Below the pieces are notes generated by a model. It had not been told where the DNA came from. It did not search any database and saw nothing but the letters and a program-made list of their open reading frames with translations. DNA of 30,825 nt from a virus. The stretch is from positions 1-30,825 of the IMG/VR virus record IMGVR_UViG_3300035670_000930; one strand, written 5' to 3'. Shown in pieces: positions 1 to 30,391 of this stretch. Made by a program: the position numbers and the translations under genes. Every line of letters begins with the position of its first letter. Position 1 is the first letter of the stretch.

Positions 1-50
1 ACTTGAGTTTCATGCCTGAGCTTCCGGCGTTTGGCGAAGGAGAATTGTAA
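1..50 (+). CDS. 3' end of an unidentified upstream gene (partial)
   Basis: The third frame is open from the window edge to a TAA at 48-50 and encodes a 15-residue C-terminus (ends ...FGEGEL). Its stop shares a base with the start of the next gene (TAATG), the same junction style seen through this phage, and it contains the GAAGGAG ribosome-binding site of that gene. Too little remains to assign a function. Confidence 0.55.
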   Translation, partial: LSFMPELPAFGEGEL

Positions 51-793
51 TGGCTGAAAATAGTCGAATCGAATGGACCGACCACACATTCAATCCCTGG
101 GTCGGGTGCGCAAAGGTCAGCCCGGCCTGTGATCATTGCTATGCGGAGTCGTGGGCCAGACGCGCCGGTCAACTGGGCCTCTGGCAGGGCGAGCGCCGCC
201 GTACCAGCGCGGCCAACTGGCAGAAGCCACTGAAATGGGAACGCGACTATATACCGGGCGCGCGGGTGTTCTGCGCCAGCCTTGCCGATGTATTCGACAA
301 TCAGGTTCCGGCGGAATGGCGCGATGATTTGTGGTCGATGATCCGTGCCACACCCAATCTCGACTGGCAGTTGCTGACCAAGCGCCCGCAGAACATCGCC
401 AAAATGCTGCCGCCCGACTGGGGCGATGGCTACCCCAACGTATGGCTTGGTACGACGGTCGAGAACCAGACCGAAGCCCACCGGCGCATTCCGCATCTGC
501 TGGCGGTTCCGGCAACGGTGCGGTTCCTGTCCTGCGAGCCGCTGCTTGATCCGTTGGATTTGACCCGCATGTTTCATTCGCCGCTGGCGTTTGCGCAGTC
601 CATGCATTGGGTGATCTGCGGTGGCGAGTCCGGCTCTGGCTGGCGCCCCATGAACCTCGAATGGGCGCGGTCGCTGCGTGACCAGTGCAAGGATGCTGGC
701 GTTCCGTTTTTCATGAAACAGATGGGCGGATTGCGCAAGCCTTTCCCGCCCATACCCGATGACTTGATGGTAAGGGAATTCCCGAATGCCTAA
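50..793 (+). CDS. DUF5131 / phage Gp37-Gp68 family protein
   Basis: This 247-residue protein opens with the hallmark of the phage Gp37/Gp68 (DUF5131) family: an IEWTDHTFNPWVGC segment followed by a Cys cluster (C20-x6-C27-x2-C30, then YAE). The spacing recalls the three-Cys iron-sulfur site of radical-SAM enzymes, but I know of no established reaction for the family, so an Fe-S enzyme role is inference. Further family-type features are a TKRP block near residue 110, LSCEPLL near 160 and ICGGESG near 190. Length is normal for the family. GAAGGAG precedes the ATG, and the start overlaps the preceding stop. The next gene starts 8 bases before its stop, so the two are probably co-translated. Confidence 0.85.
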   Translation: MAENSRIEWTDHTFNPWVGCAKVSPACDHCYAESWARRAGQLGLWQGERRRTSAANWQKPLKWERDYIPGARVFCASLADVFDNQVPAEWRDDLWSMIRATPNLDWQLLTKRPQNIAKMLPPDWGDGYPNVWLGTTVENQTEAHRRIPHLLAVPATVRFLSCEPLLDPLDLTRMFHSPLAFAQSMHWVICGGESGSGWRPMNLEWARSLRDQCKDAGVPFFMKQMGGLRKPFPPIPDDLMVREFPNA

Positions 794-24567: not shown

Positions 24568-24670
24568 GGAAGTGTGTCAGAGCGGTCTATTGAATCCGAC
24601 TCAAAATCGGATGAACCCAGTCCTAGCAAGACATCCTTGGGTTCCGATGGTTCGAATCCCGCCACTTCCG
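24568..24670 (+). tRNA. type II tRNA-like gene, anticodon CAA (Leu codon), irregular
   Basis: Cloverleaf parts in order: acceptor GGAAGTG (24568-24574) pairs fully with CACTTCC (24663-24669); TG linker; D-stem TCA/TGA with GG in the loop; anticodon stem TCCGA/TCGGA with loop CTCAAAA (anticodon CAA at 24602-24604); a variable arm of 34 bases with a 7-bp stem (24613-24619 with 24638-24644); T-loop TTCGAAT. Odd points: the T-stem GATGG/CCCGC has two mismatches, the variable arm is unusually long, total length is 103, the discriminator is G (Ser-like) in this register, and CCA is not encoded. It may be a divergent phage tRNA-Leu, a decayed tRNA or a tRNA mimic. Confidence 0.5.
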
Positions 24671-24900: not shown

Positions 24901-25506
24901 TCAAGCCGCTTCCAAGTCATCAACAGCAATCTCAACCTGTACCTGCCCGCCAAGCAGCGCAACCATGGCCTTCACGGTCTGGCGTCCTGTTGCTTCCGAT
25001 ATCGTCGCCACCTGTCCTTGCAGGACGCCTGAGACTACCTTGACGCGGGTTCCGGCTGGATAGGCGCTGGCAATCGCCTTGCGCGTCTTGCGGTTGAGGG
25101 AGGCGAGATATGCAGCGGCGCGGTCTATGTGGCCCTGGTTGATCGCCGCTTCCGAAAGCCTGAGATTGTCAATCTCGCGTTCCGGGATGATCAACGGGAC
25201 GTTGGACGCGGATCGAACGATGCCCTTCACGCCGTCCAGTTTCTCGACTGCCATGAAATCGGCAACGCCATGAACGAAGCCAAACCCGGCGATGATCGGA
25301 AAGGCTCGCCAGACCTGTTTTTTGGTTTTGCGGTCTACAATCATCTTGCGTTCAATTGGTATGTACCAGCCGATTCCGGCCTGTCTGGCAGCCGCTTCAA
25401 AGCGCGGTTCGATGCCTGGTTCGAACAGGACGCGCCGCCCTTCCCTGCGCATGACGGCGCGGGGCTTCATTGCTTCACGGGAGATTGATACCGCGTACCA
25501 GATCAT
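24901..25506 (-). CDS. NusG/RfaH-like transcription elongation factor (candidate antiterminator)
   Basis: A 201-residue NusG paralogue. The N-terminal NGN-type domain starts IWYAV (2-6), has GIGWYIPIERK (44-54) and FPIIAGFGFVHG (69-80), and a valine-rich VKGIVRSASNVPLIIPEREI stretch (93-112). After a helical linker (about 117-148) comes a KOW domain: AGTRVKVVSGVLQGQVATI (151-169). NusG binds RNA polymerase and links it to Rho or ribosomes; specialised paralogues (RfaH, LoaP) act as antiterminators on particular operons. Last gene of the early operon. A role in reading through the nearby hairpins or the 20-kb late operon is inference. Confidence 0.8.
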   Translation of the reverse strand: MIWYAVSISREAMKPRAVMRREGRRVLFEPGIEPRFEAAARQAGIGWYIPIERKMIVDRKTKKQVWRAFPIIAGFGFVHGVADFMAVEKLDGVKGIVRSASNVPLIIPEREIDNLRLSEAAINQGHIDRAAAYLASLNRKTRKAIASAYPAGTRVKVVSGVLQGQVATISEATGRQTVKAMVALLGGQVQVEIAVDDLEAA

Positions 25507-25884: not shown

Positions 25885-26057
25885 TTTGCTTCTCCTGTTT
25901 CACTTGTTTTCTGGACGTTAAAGCCTGCGATTTCCCGCCTCAGCCGGTCATGAAACTCAAGGTACTTTCGCCGGTATTCGGATTCACGGGAAACCGTCCT
26001 TTGATGCGCATGCACCGTCACGCGAATGCGAAACAGTCGGGATAGCCATTTCAACAT
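25881..26057 (-). CDS. hypothetical small basic protein
   Basis: A 58-residue, Arg-rich protein (MLKWLSRLFRIRVTVHAHQRTVSRESEYRRKYLEF..) with an amphipathic N-terminus that could touch membrane or nucleic acid. I chose the ATG at 26057, which overlaps the methyltransferase gene by 7 bases, over an upstream start inside it. Its stop overlaps the next start by 4 bases. Function unknown. Confidence 0.55.
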   Translation of the reverse strand: MLKWLSRLFRIRVTVHAHQRTVSRESEYRRKYLEFHDRLRREIAGFNVQKTSETGEAK

Positions 26058-26680
26058 TGTGCATCTCCATCTTTTTCCAGGCGACGGCGACATGGCGGAA
26101 TCCAGACAAACTTGCTTTCAGGTTCGCCGTTGATCCACACAAGCCACGAATAGGCTGTTGCAGTTGAAGCCGCAGGATCGTGCCTTCCCTTGATCATCGG
26201 AACACGTTCGCTGAATTGCGCGATTATGGATGGCGGGTTTTTGGAAAATAGCCGTTCATATCGACTGACCCCCTCAAGAAAAGCGCTGCGCACTATCAAG
26301 GCAAAGCCGACTCGTGCCAGATCACTAGCGCGTTCTACAAATTGCTCAGCAAGTCGAAAGGGCGGGTTTGTTATTATCCAATCCATCGGCCCTTGCGGCT
26401 CGCTTCCTGGAAACAGAAAGTCACAAACAGCATCCTGCCCAGTCCATCCGTAATCGTGAATGTCGGTTGCATAAACGCTAGCAAAATACTCACGCAACGG
26501 CCTTGCCATATATCCGCGATTGCAGGCAGGCTCCCAACACGTTTGTTCATGTTCTACGTGACCAGCGAGAACCAAACGCAACAGCGCGCGGGTTGCCCAT
26601 GGCGGCGTCGGAAAGTCATCCAGGCTATCATGCGGCTCCAAGCGCCGCTGCATGACTGCCGTTGAGCGGTTTTGAGACAT
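26051..26680 (-). CDS. DNA adenine-N6 methyltransferase-like protein
   Basis: A 209-residue class I methyltransferase. DDFPTPPWATRALL (21-34) opens the domain, CWEPACNRGYM (48-58) is the AdoMet motif I, YATDIHD (70-76) supplies the acidic ribose-binding residue (D73), and WIITNPPF (101-108) holds the NPPF motif of N6-adenine enzymes. No target-recognition domain is obvious, and no restriction gene is adjacent, so it is an orphan enzyme. It is smaller than and different from CcrM. It lies 10 bases after the GcrA gene. Its recognition site is unknown; protection from host restriction or epigenetic regulation are both possible. Confidence 0.8.
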   Translation of the reverse strand: MSQNRSTAVMQRRLEPHDSLDDFPTPPWATRALLRLVLAGHVEHEQTCWEPACNRGYMARPLREYFASVYATDIHDYGWTGQDAVCDFLFPGSEPQGPMDWIITNPPFRLAEQFVERASDLARVGFALIVRSAFLEGVSRYERLFSKNPPSIIAQFSERVPMIKGRHDPAASTATAYSWLVWINGEPESKFVWIPPCRRRLEKDGDAQC

Positions 26681-26690
26681 TGCCCGCCTC

Positions 26691-27206
26691 CTATGCCGCC
26701 CGGCTTCGGGCTGGTTCGTATGCTTTTGCGCAGTGGAATTCGCAGTACGGGGCCTTGACCTCCTTGCCGTGCCTAAGGCGCACGGCCTTTGGACCGCCGC
26801 AATAGCGAAACTCGGAAGTGCGCGGATCGCCTAGCGGCCATTGGCAGCAGGAGAAATCGTTTTCATCCGCCGTTATCCCCGGCCCGATTGGTTCAACCGG
26901 CTTGCAAATGGCCACAGTTGGCCGTGCAATCGTTTTTGCGGCCTTTGGCGCATGGTGAGCCGCGATATCCTTCGGCGCGTTCCTGCGGGCTTCCTTGGCG
27001 GTTTTCTTTAAACGCGGGTCAACCAGCTTGCCGCCGAATCCGATCTTTCGCAGTTCCGTCCGCCTTCGCACCATCCCGATAACCGCGTTTCGGGTTCTGC
27101 CCTTGAGTTTGCAGGCAATCTGCGCTGCGCTTTGCTTGGCATTGAGACCGTCGCGTACAATGGCGATCTCGTCATCCGACCATGGAATAAGAACCTGGAA
27201 CGTCAT
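26691..27206 (-). CDS. GcrA-family transcriptional regulator
   Basis: A 171-residue GcrA homologue. The N-terminal helix-turn-helix (WSDDEIAIVRDGLNAKQSAAQ... TRNAVIGMVRRR, residues 9-49) is diagnostic. A basic, Ala/Lys-rich linker follows (60-105), and the C-terminal sigma-interacting-type domain carries CCQWPLGDPR (120-129), YCGGPKA (136-142) and APYCEFHCAKAY (152-163). Cellular GcrA (about 170-175 residues) binds sigma70-RNA polymerase and activates promoters with methylated GANTC in alphaproteobacteria. The start overlaps the RusA-like stop (ATGA). A phage copy may redirect host cell-cycle transcription or drive phage promoters; see the methyltransferase next to it. Confidence 0.85.
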   Translation of the reverse strand: MTFQVLIPWSDDEIAIVRDGLNAKQSAAQIACKLKGRTRNAVIGMVRRRTELRKIGFGGKLVDPRLKKTAKEARRNAPKDIAAHHAPKAAKTIARPTVAICKPVEPIGPGITADENDFSCCQWPLGDPRTSEFRYCGGPKAVRLRHGKEVKAPYCEFHCAKAYEPARSRAA

Positions 27207-27562
27207 TTGCTGACTCCTGCCAGTTCGAATTCGATTGCGCCGGGCTTGCACGGTTCGGCGTATTCGTAAACCGGCAGAAAGCGGCGGTCGTTGACGCCAA
27301 GGAAATCCGCGATGCCGTCAAGATGCGGCTTACAAAGATGCGCCATGTTTGCACGGTCGAACCGGCGGGACGGCGGGATGAACCGGACCTTGATCACGAT
27401 ATCCCCATGCTCTGGCAGACGAACGCCACGCCAACATTCGGCGGCTGTCCAATGCGCAGCCGTCCGGGCAGAAAGCGTTTTCCGCGCCCGTTTGCTCCAA
27501 TGAACGCGCGCGTTGGGAGACAAGTCACGGTTAGGCCACGGGAGGGAGATCGCACCAGCCAT
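27203..27562 (-). CDS. RusA-family Holliday junction resolvase-like protein
   Basis: A 119-residue RusA-like protein (SLPWPNRDLSPNARVHWSKRAR start, RRFDRANMAHLCKPHLDGIADFLGVNDRRF at 67-95). In RusA the catalytic motif is D-x-D-N; here it is D69-R-A-N, so the second Asp is Ala. K78, D82 and the last acid D92 are present. The ATG at 27562 shares a base with the upstream stop (TGATG); the extra 10 residues from 27592 are unlikely. RusA resolves DNA junctions and helps debranch replicating phage DNA before packaging. The D-to-A change makes activity uncertain. Confidence 0.75.
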   Translation of the reverse strand: MAGAISLPWPNRDLSPNARVHWSKRARKTLSARTAAHWTAAECWRGVRLPEHGDIVIKVRFIPPSRRFDRANMAHLCKPHLDGIADFLGVNDRRFLPVYEYAEPCKPGAIEFELAGVSK

Positions 27563-27945
27563 CAGAACCCCCTCGGCGGAACGTACAGGCAAAGCAGCCG
27601 GTTCGGTTCGGTATCGACAAAGGCTGGCGAAGCTGAACCAATGCAGACGTGAAAATATCCGTCCTGCCCGTCATAGCGGATGCGCGAATCGCCGTACGGA
27701 ACCGTGAACGTTTTCGCGACCGCAAGCTGATTGTTCATTTCCGGCGTAATGTTCAGCGTATAGCCTTGCGGGCCTTCCTGGACGGCAGACGCCGGAATCT
27801 GCGAACAGTCCTGATTGGAACAGCATTGCAGCGCGTACTGCCAGCCAAGCGGCGCTTCATGGCCGCGCGCTACCGACCACGCTGCCATGCCGATCAGAAC
27901 GGCAAAGCAGGAAGCGATGACGAGAAGTGTTGCAATGCGGATCAT
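27562..27945 (-). CDS. exported or membrane-anchored Cys-rich protein
   Basis: A 127-residue protein with an N-terminal hydrophobic segment (3-24) typical of a signal or anchor. The exported part has QCCSNQDCSQIP (C41, C42, C47) and single cysteines C101 and C119, with AVQEGPQGYTL, VPYGDSRIR and a C-terminal LCLYVPPRGF. I recall similar unnamed proteins in Rhizobiales genomes. The number and spacing of cysteines suggest disulfides in the periplasm. It is odd in an early replication operon; its start overlaps the tiny 27942 gene by 4 bases and its stop the RusA gene by 1. Function unknown. Confidence 0.7.
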   Translation of the reverse strand: MIRIATLLVIASCFAVLIGMAAWSVARGHEAPLGWQYALQCCSNQDCSQIPASAVQEGPQGYTLNITPEMNNQLAVAKTFTVPYGDSRIRYDGQDGYFHVCIGSASPAFVDTEPNRLLCLYVPPRGF

Positions 27946-28025
27946 GCTGCACCGCCTTGTTCGCCAGTGACGAACCCGTAAAACCTCAGGTCATGGCGGC
28001 GGCGCATATCGGCTTGCAGCGTCAT
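27942..28025 (-). CDS. tiny coupled gene, 27 residues
   Basis: A 27-residue basic frame (MTLQADMRRRHDLRFYGFVTGEQGGAA) that fills the space between the clamp gene and the Cys-rich gene. Its ATG shares a base with the clamp stop (TGATG) and its stop overlaps the next ATG by four bases. Both junctions are of the kind used in the whole operon, so translation is likely. The product may matter, or it may only serve coupling. Confidence 0.45.
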   Translation of the reverse strand: MTLQADMRRRHDLRFYGFVTGEQGGAA

Positions 28026-29107
28026 CACACCCTCATCGGCATGATGGTGATGGAAAGCGGGTGATTATCGGCAACCATCAGCGCCGGATCGCTTGGCCCG
28101 GAAACAAACATGGTGACCGTTTCGCAGCCGCGAAACGCGTTGAGGGACAAAAGAAGATATGCGGCTGAAAAACCGAACTCGGGCATCTTGCCCATGTTTG
28201 CGGACAGGATGACCGGAAGCGTTTCCTTCCAGTCGATCCGTTCAAACGTGTAAAATGTCCCGGAAAGAGAAGCTTCCCCGCTTCCGACCTTGAACTTGAC
28301 CGGCTTCGCACTTGCCCCCTGGTGCGCGTGGTAGATGCGGGTCAGTGCCAGCCGCCAGGTTGCGATGTCAATCGTGAACCACTGGTCTCCCGCCGCAGGC
28401 ACAACCCGCCTCCAGTTGGGATATGTGCCGTCGATCAGCCTGCTGCTCATCGTTATGCCCGGCCACTTGGCGCGCATGTACTTTTCGCCCGTGCCGATCT
28501 CGTCGGGCGAAACCTTGCGCGACAGCATGTAGTCGACGGCGAAACTTGGCACGATCCTGCCGTGCAGCGCCTCGACCGCAGGCATTCGCCAACTCGCCAG
28601 CATGCGGCCATCGGTGGCAACAGCGAGCGTGCCGTCACCGTCAGCCTCGAAGTAGACGCCGTTCAGATAGTACCGCGTGTGCTCGCTCGAAGCCGCAAAG
28701 CCGACGCCGCGCAATGCAGCGATCAGGTCGATGTTGTGGCACTTGCCCCAGTTTGGCACTTCCGCATTGTTGCCAAATACTGGATTGTCGCCAATTTGCG
28801 ACCCGAACCGGTAATTGCTGCCATTGAAGGTCACGTTGACGGCATCGCCGCCCGAGATGGTGATGGTTTCATCGCCCGGCACATACCGGATCAGGTTACG
28901 CAACTGGCGCGCGTTGATTGCGCCTTCAAACCCCGATTCCATCGCCGCGATATCAGCCACGACCTCGATATCCAAATTGGTTCCGCTGATCGTGTTGCCC
29001 CCAAATCGTACCTGTGACAGCGCCGGAATAATTGACCGCGACGGGACGACAGGAGCGACCACCGCAAGAGTTTGCATCAGATCGGATGCCTTGATTTCCG
29101 TTTTCAT
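28025..29107 (-). CDS. dnaN: DNA polymerase III beta sliding clamp homologue
   Basis: A 360-residue clamp. The bacterial beta-clamp pattern covers the whole length: start KTEIKASDLMQTLAVVAPVVPSRSIIPALSQVRFG, the centre YYLNGVYFEADGDGTLAVATDGRMLASWRMP, SSRLIDGTYPNWRRVVP, and the standard end ITIMPMRV. The clamp encircles DNA and tethers the polymerase, so a phage copy would load the host polymerase onto phage DNA. It is a little shorter than host DnaN (about 370) and quite divergent. Good GGAAGGA site before the ATG. Its start overlaps the 47-residue gene (ATGA). Confidence 0.85.
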   Translation of the reverse strand: MKTEIKASDLMQTLAVVAPVVPSRSIIPALSQVRFGGNTISGTNLDIEVVADIAAMESGFEGAINARQLRNLIRYVPGDETITISGGDAVNVTFNGSNYRFGSQIGDNPVFGNNAEVPNWGKCHNIDLIAALRGVGFAASSEHTRYYLNGVYFEADGDGTLAVATDGRMLASWRMPAVEALHGRIVPSFAVDYMLSRKVSPDEIGTGEKYMRAKWPGITMSSRLIDGTYPNWRRVVPAAGDQWFTIDIATWRLALTRIYHAHQGASAKPVKFKVGSGEASLSGTFYTFERIDWKETLPVILSANMGKMPEFGFSAAYLLLSLNAFRGCETVTMFVSGPSDPALMVADNHPLSITIMPMRV

Positions 29108-29247
29108 GACCGTGTTTCCTTCCGTTGAATTAGCAGGCTAAGTGCTTTCGGTTGCGAACGGTTGCCTCTGCCCATTCCAAAGCCATGCTGCGCCCGGACA
29201 CGAGCGACGAACTCGCCTTTGCTCTCGTCGGCATATCGCGGCATCAT
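29104..29247 (-). CDS. small basic protein, 47 residues, between DUF1376 and clamp genes
   Basis: A 47-residue basic frame (MMPRYADESKGEFVARVRAQ...) with GGAGG five bases before the ATG at 29247, which overlaps the previous stop; the next ATG at 29244 is an alternative. The stop overlaps the clamp start (ATGA). These coupled junctions and the ribosome-binding site make a real gene likely. No family recognised; the Gly/Arg run in the middle might bind nucleic acid. Confidence 0.55.
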   Translation of the reverse strand: MMPRYADESKGEFVARVRAQHGFGMGRGNRSQPKALSLLIQRKETRS

Positions 29248-29729
29248 GCCCTCCATTTTTTTTGCTTGAGAAGATCAGCCAATTGCTGCGATGCAGCAGG
29301 AAACGGAACGATTTCGCTACTGCCTTCAACTCTTGTAGAAGAGGTATTATCTTTATTCTGTATTCTGTATGTAGAAGCCCGACCGTTGAAATCATTGGGC
29401 TTTTCGCGGACTTTTAATCGACTTTTCATCGACTTTTCACCGACTTTTTCACGCGCAGCTATCTCCTCAGTTACCGTCTTGTTGGTCAAAAATCCGCGCT
29501 CAATGTCCAGTTTTCCGCGCTGCACAAGAGCGTCTACAGCCGCCTGAAACGAGGTCGGACGCATGCCGCAGCGCCGTGCCATGACGGGCACGTCCAAGCG
29601 TACAAAGCCCTCATTGTCGTACAGTTCGCACAGTACTGTCAGGTAGGCCGCAATCTCGTTCGGAGACAGGCCGGTTGTGCCCTTGAACCAGCGATCAATG
29701 TAGAACCGGAACCAGCGCTTTCTGCTCAT
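29244..29729 (-). CDS. DUF1376 (YdaU-like) phage replication-region protein
   Basis: A 161-residue protein with the DUF1376 pattern: RWFRFYIDRWFKGTTGLSPNEIAAYLTVLCELYDNEGFV (5-43), then a winged-helix-like RLDVPVMARRCGMRPTSFQAAVDALVQRGKL. The C-terminal part (about 90-161) is Lys/Ser-rich and probably flexible. DUF1376 proteins are found in phage replication modules, often upstream of helicase-loader functions, without a proved activity. The ATG at 29729 overlaps the upstream stop by 4 bases and replaces a longer frame. Confidence 0.75.
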   Translation of the reverse strand: MSRKRWFRFYIDRWFKGTTGLSPNEIAAYLTVLCELYDNEGFVRLDVPVMARRCGMRPTSFQAAVDALVQRGKLDIERGFLTNKTVTEEIAAREKVGEKSMKSRLKVREKPNDFNGRASTYRIQNKDNTSSTRVEGSSEIVPFPAASQQLADLLKQKKWRA

Positions 29730-30391
29730 GCCACCGCCTCCAAATCGAGACCGTTGGCCACCGCCCTTTGCAGCGCCGCCGATTGAATCGGCCAACTCTG
29801 ATCATCTATCGGATTGCCGGTTCGCACGGCCTCGCAGACGCGGACGAAACGCCCGCGCGCGTGCATCATGGTTGTGTGATCAAACCCGCCCAGGCGGCGT
29901 CCTATATCGGGATAGGAAAGCGCCGTTTCCTGCTTGGCGAGATATACGATATGACCGCGTATCAGGCTCGCAAAGGCGGTGCGACGGCGCACAAATGCTT
30001 CGCTGCAAGCGACCCCGTACAGGCCGCAGACATGGCGCACGATCTCTACAAAGCTGCGCCCGATTTTTGGCTTGGACGCCAGCGCAACCGGCAAATCGCC
30101 GTCCTGCCAGACCGGCGCTTGCACGGGTTCCACCTTGACTGATTCCGGGTCAAAGCACTCAACCCAGAACGGTTCGCTTTGGCCTTCAAAAACGATGCAA
30201 AGGCTCATCCCGTGGCGAAACTTGGCAAGTATGCGCGGGCGTTCCGGCTCCACTGCCACGGCCTTGCGGCACGGCCTTTTCGGCAATCGCGCGCGGACGA
30301 TGCGCCGGTAATTGGCAACCATCTCTTGAGCAGATGCATATTCACGGGCGGCGATCATCGGGTACGATTTCCTGAATTTCGGGTAAGGCAT
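29726..30391 (-). CDS. protein with DnaA domain IV-like helix-turn-helix (candidate replication initiator)
   Basis: A 221-residue protein. Residues 1-105 show no known domain. The C-terminal half (about 112-182) resembles DnaA domain IV: EIVRHVCGLYGV..., RGHIVYLAKQETALSYPDIGRRLGGFDHTTMMHA, with GGFDHTTMMHA (168-178) matching the GGRDHTTVLHA signature that contacts DnaA boxes. There is no AAA+ ATPase, so it would recognise DnaA boxes without acting as a full DnaA. AAGGAG precedes the ATG. It could start phage replication or compete with host DnaA. First gene of the early operon in the window. Confidence 0.75.
   Translation of the reverse strand: MPYPKFRKSYPMIAAREYASAQEMVANYRRIVRARLPKRPCRKAVAVEPERPRILAKFRHGMSLCIVFEGQSEPFWVECFDPESVKVEPVQAPVWQDGDLPVALASKPKIGRSFVEIVRHVCGLYGVACSEAFVRRRTAFASLIRGHIVYLAKQETALSYPDIGRRLGGFDHTTMMHARGRFVRVCEAVRTGNPIDDQSWPIQSAALQRAVANGLDLEAVA

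Follow-up and report, generated by a model that had tools for sequence, protein, structure and literature searches.

Adjacent genes for a GcrA homologue and a probable GANTC methyltransferase in the early operon of an alphaproteobacterial phage: a candidate writer–reader module

The window analysed here, 30,825 bases long, is a single IMG/VR virus record, and its DNA is that of a phage of alphaproteobacteria. The early operon lies on the minus strand. It encodes, in order, a protein with a DnaA C-terminal HTH domain (29726..30391, the first called gene of the operon; PF08299, E = 2.3e-13), a DUF1376 primosomal-type protein (29244..29795), a DnaN-like sliding clamp (28025..29107; PF02767/PF00712, PHROG_947), a protein of 127 aa, a RusA-like Holliday-junction resolvase (27203..27592; PHROG_34, E = 1.3e-13), a GcrA of 171 aa (26691..27206), an orphan N6-adenine DNA methyltransferase of 209 aa with probable GANTC specificity (26051..26680; PHROG_799), two small ORFs and, at the operon end, a NusG-like transcription antiterminator (24901..25506; PF02357, PHROG_25909). 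The resolvase gene, directly upstream of the GcrA gene, overlaps it, its stop codon and the GcrA ATG sharing the letters ATGA. A spacer of 10 bases (26681..26690, minus strand) separates GcrA from the methyltransferase, and a perfect AGGAGG ribosome-binding site, overlapping the end of the GcrA stop codon, is found about 6 nt 5' of the methyltransferase ATG. RusA was the sole nuclease-family match among the neighbours (GcrA, RusA, the two small ORFs and the NusG-like protein). No restriction endonuclease was recognised beside the methyltransferase, which, with no cognate endonuclease adjoining it, does not classify as part of a restriction-modification system.

In alphaproteobacteria, CcrM methylates the adenine in GANTC and GcrA activates promoters carrying that mark. 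The window GcrA aligned with positions 3–151 of the 155-position PF07750 profile (E = 1.1e-17; score 65.3 bits, with 26.9 as the cut-off), and its residues 8–169 matched Caulobacter GcrA 7ye1 by sequence (E = 3.5e-12). It consists of a DNA-binding domain (DBD, about residues 8–50), a linker and a sigma-70 domain-2 interacting domain (SID, about residues 118–165). The AlphaFold model contains two confident domains (pLDDT of about 90 or more) joined by a low-confidence linker. In Foldseek comparisons, the DBD aligned with 5yiv (the Caulobacter DBD with methylated DNA) at a target-normalised TM of 0.87, and the SID with 5yix (the SID with sigma-70 domain 2) at 0.84. Both the PF07750 match over the whole domain and the DBD and SID folds place the protein in the GcrA family. 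Against the cellular GcrA equivalog NF050816 it scored 60.1 bits, where the cut-off is 280; judged from its sequence, it is a member of the family and not a cell-cycle orthologue. The recognition segment TRNAVIG and the SID core C..WP.GDP...CG...PYC..H are retained. Identity to other phage GcrAs is about 25–36%, with strong divergence in the linker and the SID, and there is a 9-residue insertion in the SID, so its function may have drifted. By analogy with the GcrA family, the N-terminal domain would bind methyl-GANTC and the C-terminal domain would contact sigma-70 domain 2.

The methyltransferase was retrieved with PHROG_799, annotated as DNA methyltransferase (E = 4.7e-54). Motif I (EPACNRGYM) precedes motif IV (TNPPF), which is the order of the amino-methyltransferase fold of N6-adenine DNA methyltransferases. 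No Pfam match to PF01555 (N6_N4_Mtase), the family of CcrM, was obtained, and the enzyme falls outside the CcrM family. The FPTPPWATRAL-type columns, NPPF and other columns are retained in 22 homologues. In the structural comparison, the predicted model (pLDDT 87) had as its nearest solved fold the N6-adenine DNA methyltransferase M.TaqI, which ranked first (E = 9e-7; TM 0.57 of the query); RNA methyltransferases rank close behind, so that the fold by itself leaves the substrate unfixed. The original prediction, made from the letters alone, of a full-length GcrA followed after 10 bases by a 209-residue NPPF-type methyltransferase unlike CcrM, both in the early operon, was therefore accurate, as the PF07750 and PHROG_799 matches and the lack of one to PF01555 attest.

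More can be said of the mark that the enzyme writes. Over 99% of its length it shares 63.6% identity with PhiLM21_p027 of Sinorhizobium phage phiLM21 and 64.6% with the methyltransferase of Rhizobium phage RHph_Y25. Homology to the phiLM21-type phage GANTC methyltransferases extends over the full length and includes motif I, NPPF and the flanking columns. GANTC methylation by PhiLM21_p027, an enzyme unrelated to CcrM, has been demonstrated experimentally, and its 33%-identical relative Phi2LM21_p21 is likewise GANTC-specific (PMC5537653). GANTC is the methylation site of three short prophage methyltransferases from Paracoccus aminophilus as well (PMC3925955). Because the window enzyme is 64% identical to a GANTC-specific enzyme, within a group whose 33% relatives share that specificity, it most probably methylates the adenine in GANTC, the mark of the host CcrM/GcrA circuit, and for a transfer drawn from sequence this one is strong. 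The phage would then most probably duplicate the host writer by means of an unrelated enzyme and the host reader by means of a homologue. The writer–reader idea put forward in the original prediction gains from this, at the expense of its suggestion that the phage brings a mark of its own: the nearest characterised relative (64%) methylates host GANTC, so that private mark and host mark merge into a host mark made by the phage. The GANTC specificity of that relative likewise argues against the enzyme targeting an unrelated site.

Recurrence of the pair was assessed from both genes. Starting from the methyltransferase, 80 IMG/VR relatives and four isolates (84 records) were fetched; PF07750 exceeded its cut-off in 12 of them, none of which was an isolate, and only in L031 did the GcrA and methyltransferase genes overlap (stop/start TGATG). 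Starting from GcrA, alignments used as queries recovered 71 and 80 phage loci; when viral contigs were scanned with only the window protein as query, nothing matched. The co-occurrence set comprised 50 whole records with a Caulobacter-type GcrA. Five of these records encoded a strong PHROG_799 methyltransferase, in every case directly beside GcrA, and these rates are descriptive since the DnaN control scan for an alphaproteobacterial phage background set returned no matches. In bacterial genomes, one of 80 methyltransferase loci had a full GcrA within 10 kb. This locus (L265, Pseudorhizobium tarimense) is a clear prophage, with genes for a CI-type repressor, CII, primase and terminase, and its GcrA adjoins the methyltransferase. 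Among the TerL relatives of the window, mostly short records, the pair was not found, and the closest of them had neither gene in that DNA.

The methyltransferase precedes GcrA in one of the five adjacent pairs (L216) and follows it in the other four (L212, L225, L237 and L259). The gap amounts to 172 bases in L212/L213; in L216, L225, L237 and L259 the genes either overlap or have a single base between them. Adjacency was seen with two distant methyltransferase subfamilies (NPPF and NPPW) and in both gene orders. Four enzymes are of the NPPW type, a distant subfamily related to those of PBC5 and DSS3P8, which have been aligned with GANTC methyltransferases (PMC5537653). The paired GcrAs, one close couple excepted, are mutually only 25–45% identical. 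As in the window, RusA is encoded directly 5' of GcrA in L212, L237 and L259; in RHph_Y25 it is directly 5' of the methyltransferase without an intervening GcrA, and an annotated RusA gene touches the methyltransferase gene in RHph_I3_18 and RHph_N3_2. A third set, mostly environmental contigs, carries both genes on one strand, 1.3–5 kb apart. In the isolated phages examined that have both genes, such as Atu_ph08, they are unlinked. Other phage GcrAs occur in genomes without a nearby GANTC-type methyltransferase, from which it follows that the reader does not need one. That the two genes are conserved together, as the original prediction required, is borne out by the tight adjacency seen in no fewer than seven other phages or prophages (L031, L265, L225, L237, L259, L212/L213 and L216) but not by phages at large, as most of those with GcrA or the methyltransferase carry just one of the two. 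The pair is uncommon and sporadic, and it has either come together repeatedly or been maintained over a long time at a single slot of the early operon.

Several loci depart from this layout. The GcrA-adjacent NPPW-type methyltransferases of L225 (10530–11051) and L237 (10534–11061) have the altered motifs NIPW and NTPW, and are possibly weakened or inactive. L151 (27–1102) and L168 (3200–5038) encode a small HTH ORF, a PHROG_799-type methyltransferase and then a short protein with the GcrA SID only, with an extra HNH-like ORF intervening in L168; this layout is possibly a split arrangement. In Nitratireductor aquimarinus (L264, 4220–5014), a GcrA-like DBD is fused to a different C-terminus that replaces the SID. 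This protein is encoded 1.6 kb upstream of the closest methyltransferase (66%). Six further candidate pairs (L056, L060, L065, L066, L077 and L078) were rejected, their weak HTH matches being generic DBD-like ORFs.

Coding GANTC is depleted in the window, which has 58 sites against 81 expected by synonymous shuffling, and none of 500 shuffles was as low. The depletion is general to every phage set compared, with or without either gene, and we therefore rejected it as evidence for the role of this methyltransferase. When intergenic and coding frequencies were compared for the 16 XYNY'X' palindromes, GANTC had the highest intergenic enrichment, at 2.65x in the window and 2.30x in six phages with the pair, against 1.17x in phages with the methyltransferase but no GcrA; the test is post hoc, relies on crude gene calls, and controls rise too (GTNAC, 1.6–1.9x). 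An identical tandem-GANTC block, AATCGATTCGACTCTT, occurs in L237 (6805–6901) and L259 (5063–5196). Two GANTC sites adjoin each other in it, and further sites lie close by. The early intergenic region that holds the block, some 3 kb ahead of GcrA, has otherwise diverged between the two phages. The tandem GANTCGANTC was counted 15 times in GcrA loci (2,320 kb) and never in other loci (1,046 kb), a post hoc count with most instances inside called ORFs that we take as a hint only. Clusters of at least three GANTC in 60 bp were not enriched relative to control palindromes. In the window, two GANTC sites (30630 and 30656) lie upstream of the early operon. A sigma-70 promoter scan performed at chance level and recognised no promoter near them, and the window GANTC sites displayed no clear promoter architecture by which a phage promoter target could be identified. 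The intergenic enrichment and the shared tandem block are hints of sequences that the pair may act on.

The components of the pair are known, and their combination in one operon appears to be new. Phage-encoded GcrAs have been published (PMC3556154, PMC6630229, PMC12429752, PMC11836647), as have phage GANTC methyltransferases (PMC5537653), and a paper on phage CtrA lists the two separately, each as an indication that phages take an interest in the host cell cycle (PMC9437464); no description of an adjacent pair was found within the searchable literature. PhiLM21_p027 shares with the window enzyme 64% full-length identity, the same motifs and the same location in the early/replication module, but a PF07750 search of the whole phiLM21 record finds no GcrA. 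phiCbK and its relatives encode a PF07750 protein with a DBD and a sigma-interacting domain (PMC3556154). Unlike the window phage, they are jumbo siphophages, and the neighbours of gcrA in CcrBL10 are annotated as hypothetical small ORFs, with no methyltransferase. Agrobacterium phage Atu_ph08 is an isolate with both a GcrA (gp5, 41.8 bits) and an NPPW-subfamily methyltransferase (gp67; PHROG_799, E = 4.7e-43), which are however encoded on opposite strands and separated by about 4.4 kb spanning the record start. Its gp5 has been published, and the accessible part of that report does not connect it with gp67 (PMC6630229). The phage pair probably shares its mark with the host CcrM/GcrA circuit, and the two readers are of one family, whereas the phage writer belongs to another methyltransferase family (no PF01555) and is encoded with the reader in one operon.

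We put at roughly 0.5 the probability that GcrA and the methyltransferase form a writer-plus-reader module for the host methyl-GANTC mark. Host GcrA is missing from some cell types. GcrA from Caulobacter, Brucella and Sinorhizobium prefers fully methylated to hemimethylated GANTC, and hemimethylated to unmethylated GANTC (PMC3667746). It acts via sigma domain 2, as a sigma-activator in one well-studied case (PMC7403470), and in Caulobacter CcrM is produced only late in the cell cycle (PMC7987155). Since the CcrM window is short, phage DNA fresh from replication would spend most of the cycle hemi- or unmethylated and would respond poorly to GcrA. For as long as infection lasts, the phage methyltransferase could re-methylate GANTC on phage (and host) DNA, and the phage GcrA would provide the sigma cofactor that raises open-complex formation at marked promoters. 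With both proteins made from one transcript, phage promoters would be methylated and GcrA-responsive outside the host CcrM window, and these promoters, together with S-phase host genes, might fire at any stage of the host cell cycle. A side benefit might be protection against restriction enzymes that cut GANTC. We propose more tentatively, at somewhat less than even odds, that the complete writer–reader operon and clustered GANTC early promoters make up a self-contained, horizontally assembled epigenetic switch, in which methylation made by the phage gates phage transcription independently of the host cell cycle. If so, a virus would carry both the writing and the reading half of an epigenetic regulatory circuit of its host, and a translationally coupled unit that recurs with non-orthologous methyltransferases would make the purpose of phage CcrM-mimics directly testable.

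Alternatively, the two genes may have independent early functions, the methyltransferase serving restriction escape or the timing of replication or packaging, and GcrA, in line with a proposal made for phiCbK, driving the host towards replication competence. That most relatives hold one gene only fits such a division, as do the solitary GcrA of phiCbK-like phages (PMC3556154), the solitary GANTC methyltransferases near replication genes in rhizobial phages (PMC5537653) and the RusA–methyltransferase pair of RHph_Y25. Tight adjacency repeated with two methyltransferase subfamilies and in both orders would, however, be unexpected of unrelated functions. The coding GANTC depletion (58 against 81) is what restriction pressure would give, but its generality across phage sets means that it does not point to this methyltransferase, and the neighbouring genes include no recognisable restriction endonuclease. 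On balance we regard independent functions as the main rival reading, less likely than the module.

It is improbable that the genes are neighbours by chance, in a mosaic slot between RusA and the antiterminator that gathers small genes without functional juxtaposition, even though the immediate neighbours of the methyltransferase vary widely among phages, early regions have a mosaic make-up, and neither gene was present in the examined DNA of the closest TerL relatives. With tens of genes per record, we estimate the chance of adjacency at about 3–7% for each of the five records, all five of which have it; four of the five pairs are independent, their GcrAs diverging by at least 55%, and overlapping or abutting stop and start codons have been kept while the GcrAs diverged to 25–45% identity. 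We give very little credence to the idea of a decoy, in which the phage GcrA would compete for sigma-70 or methyl-GANTC and shut down the host programme while the methyltransferase alters host methylation. The strongly diverged linker and SID of the window GcrA (25–36% identity, 9-residue insertion) and the SID-only and DBD-only GcrA-like ORFs near methyltransferases (L151, L168 and L264) are in keeping with it, but the window protein retains both domains and their folds, of which a decoy would need fewer, and the GcrA of the well-studied case activates sigma (PMC7403470).

Three further features were recorded. The stated host of PP438432.1 and OM868079.1, phages labelled Synechococcus, may deserve checking, as both contain a GcrA-like gene, which is unexpected for cyanobacterial hosts. 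At the left end of the window (50–793, plus strand), a phage Gp37/Gp68-type radical-SAM-like protein is encoded, with a remote likeness, below the cut-off, to "radical SAM mobile pair protein A". A tRNA-like sequence at 24568–24670 (plus strand), apparently of the Leu(CAA) type and long in its variable arm, scored 38.2 bits with the Rfam tRNA model (gathering threshold 29) and was not reported by ARAGORN; its T stem has two mispairs, and three of the noncoding GANTC sites of the window fall within it. It is possibly a decayed tRNA or the remnant of an attachment site.
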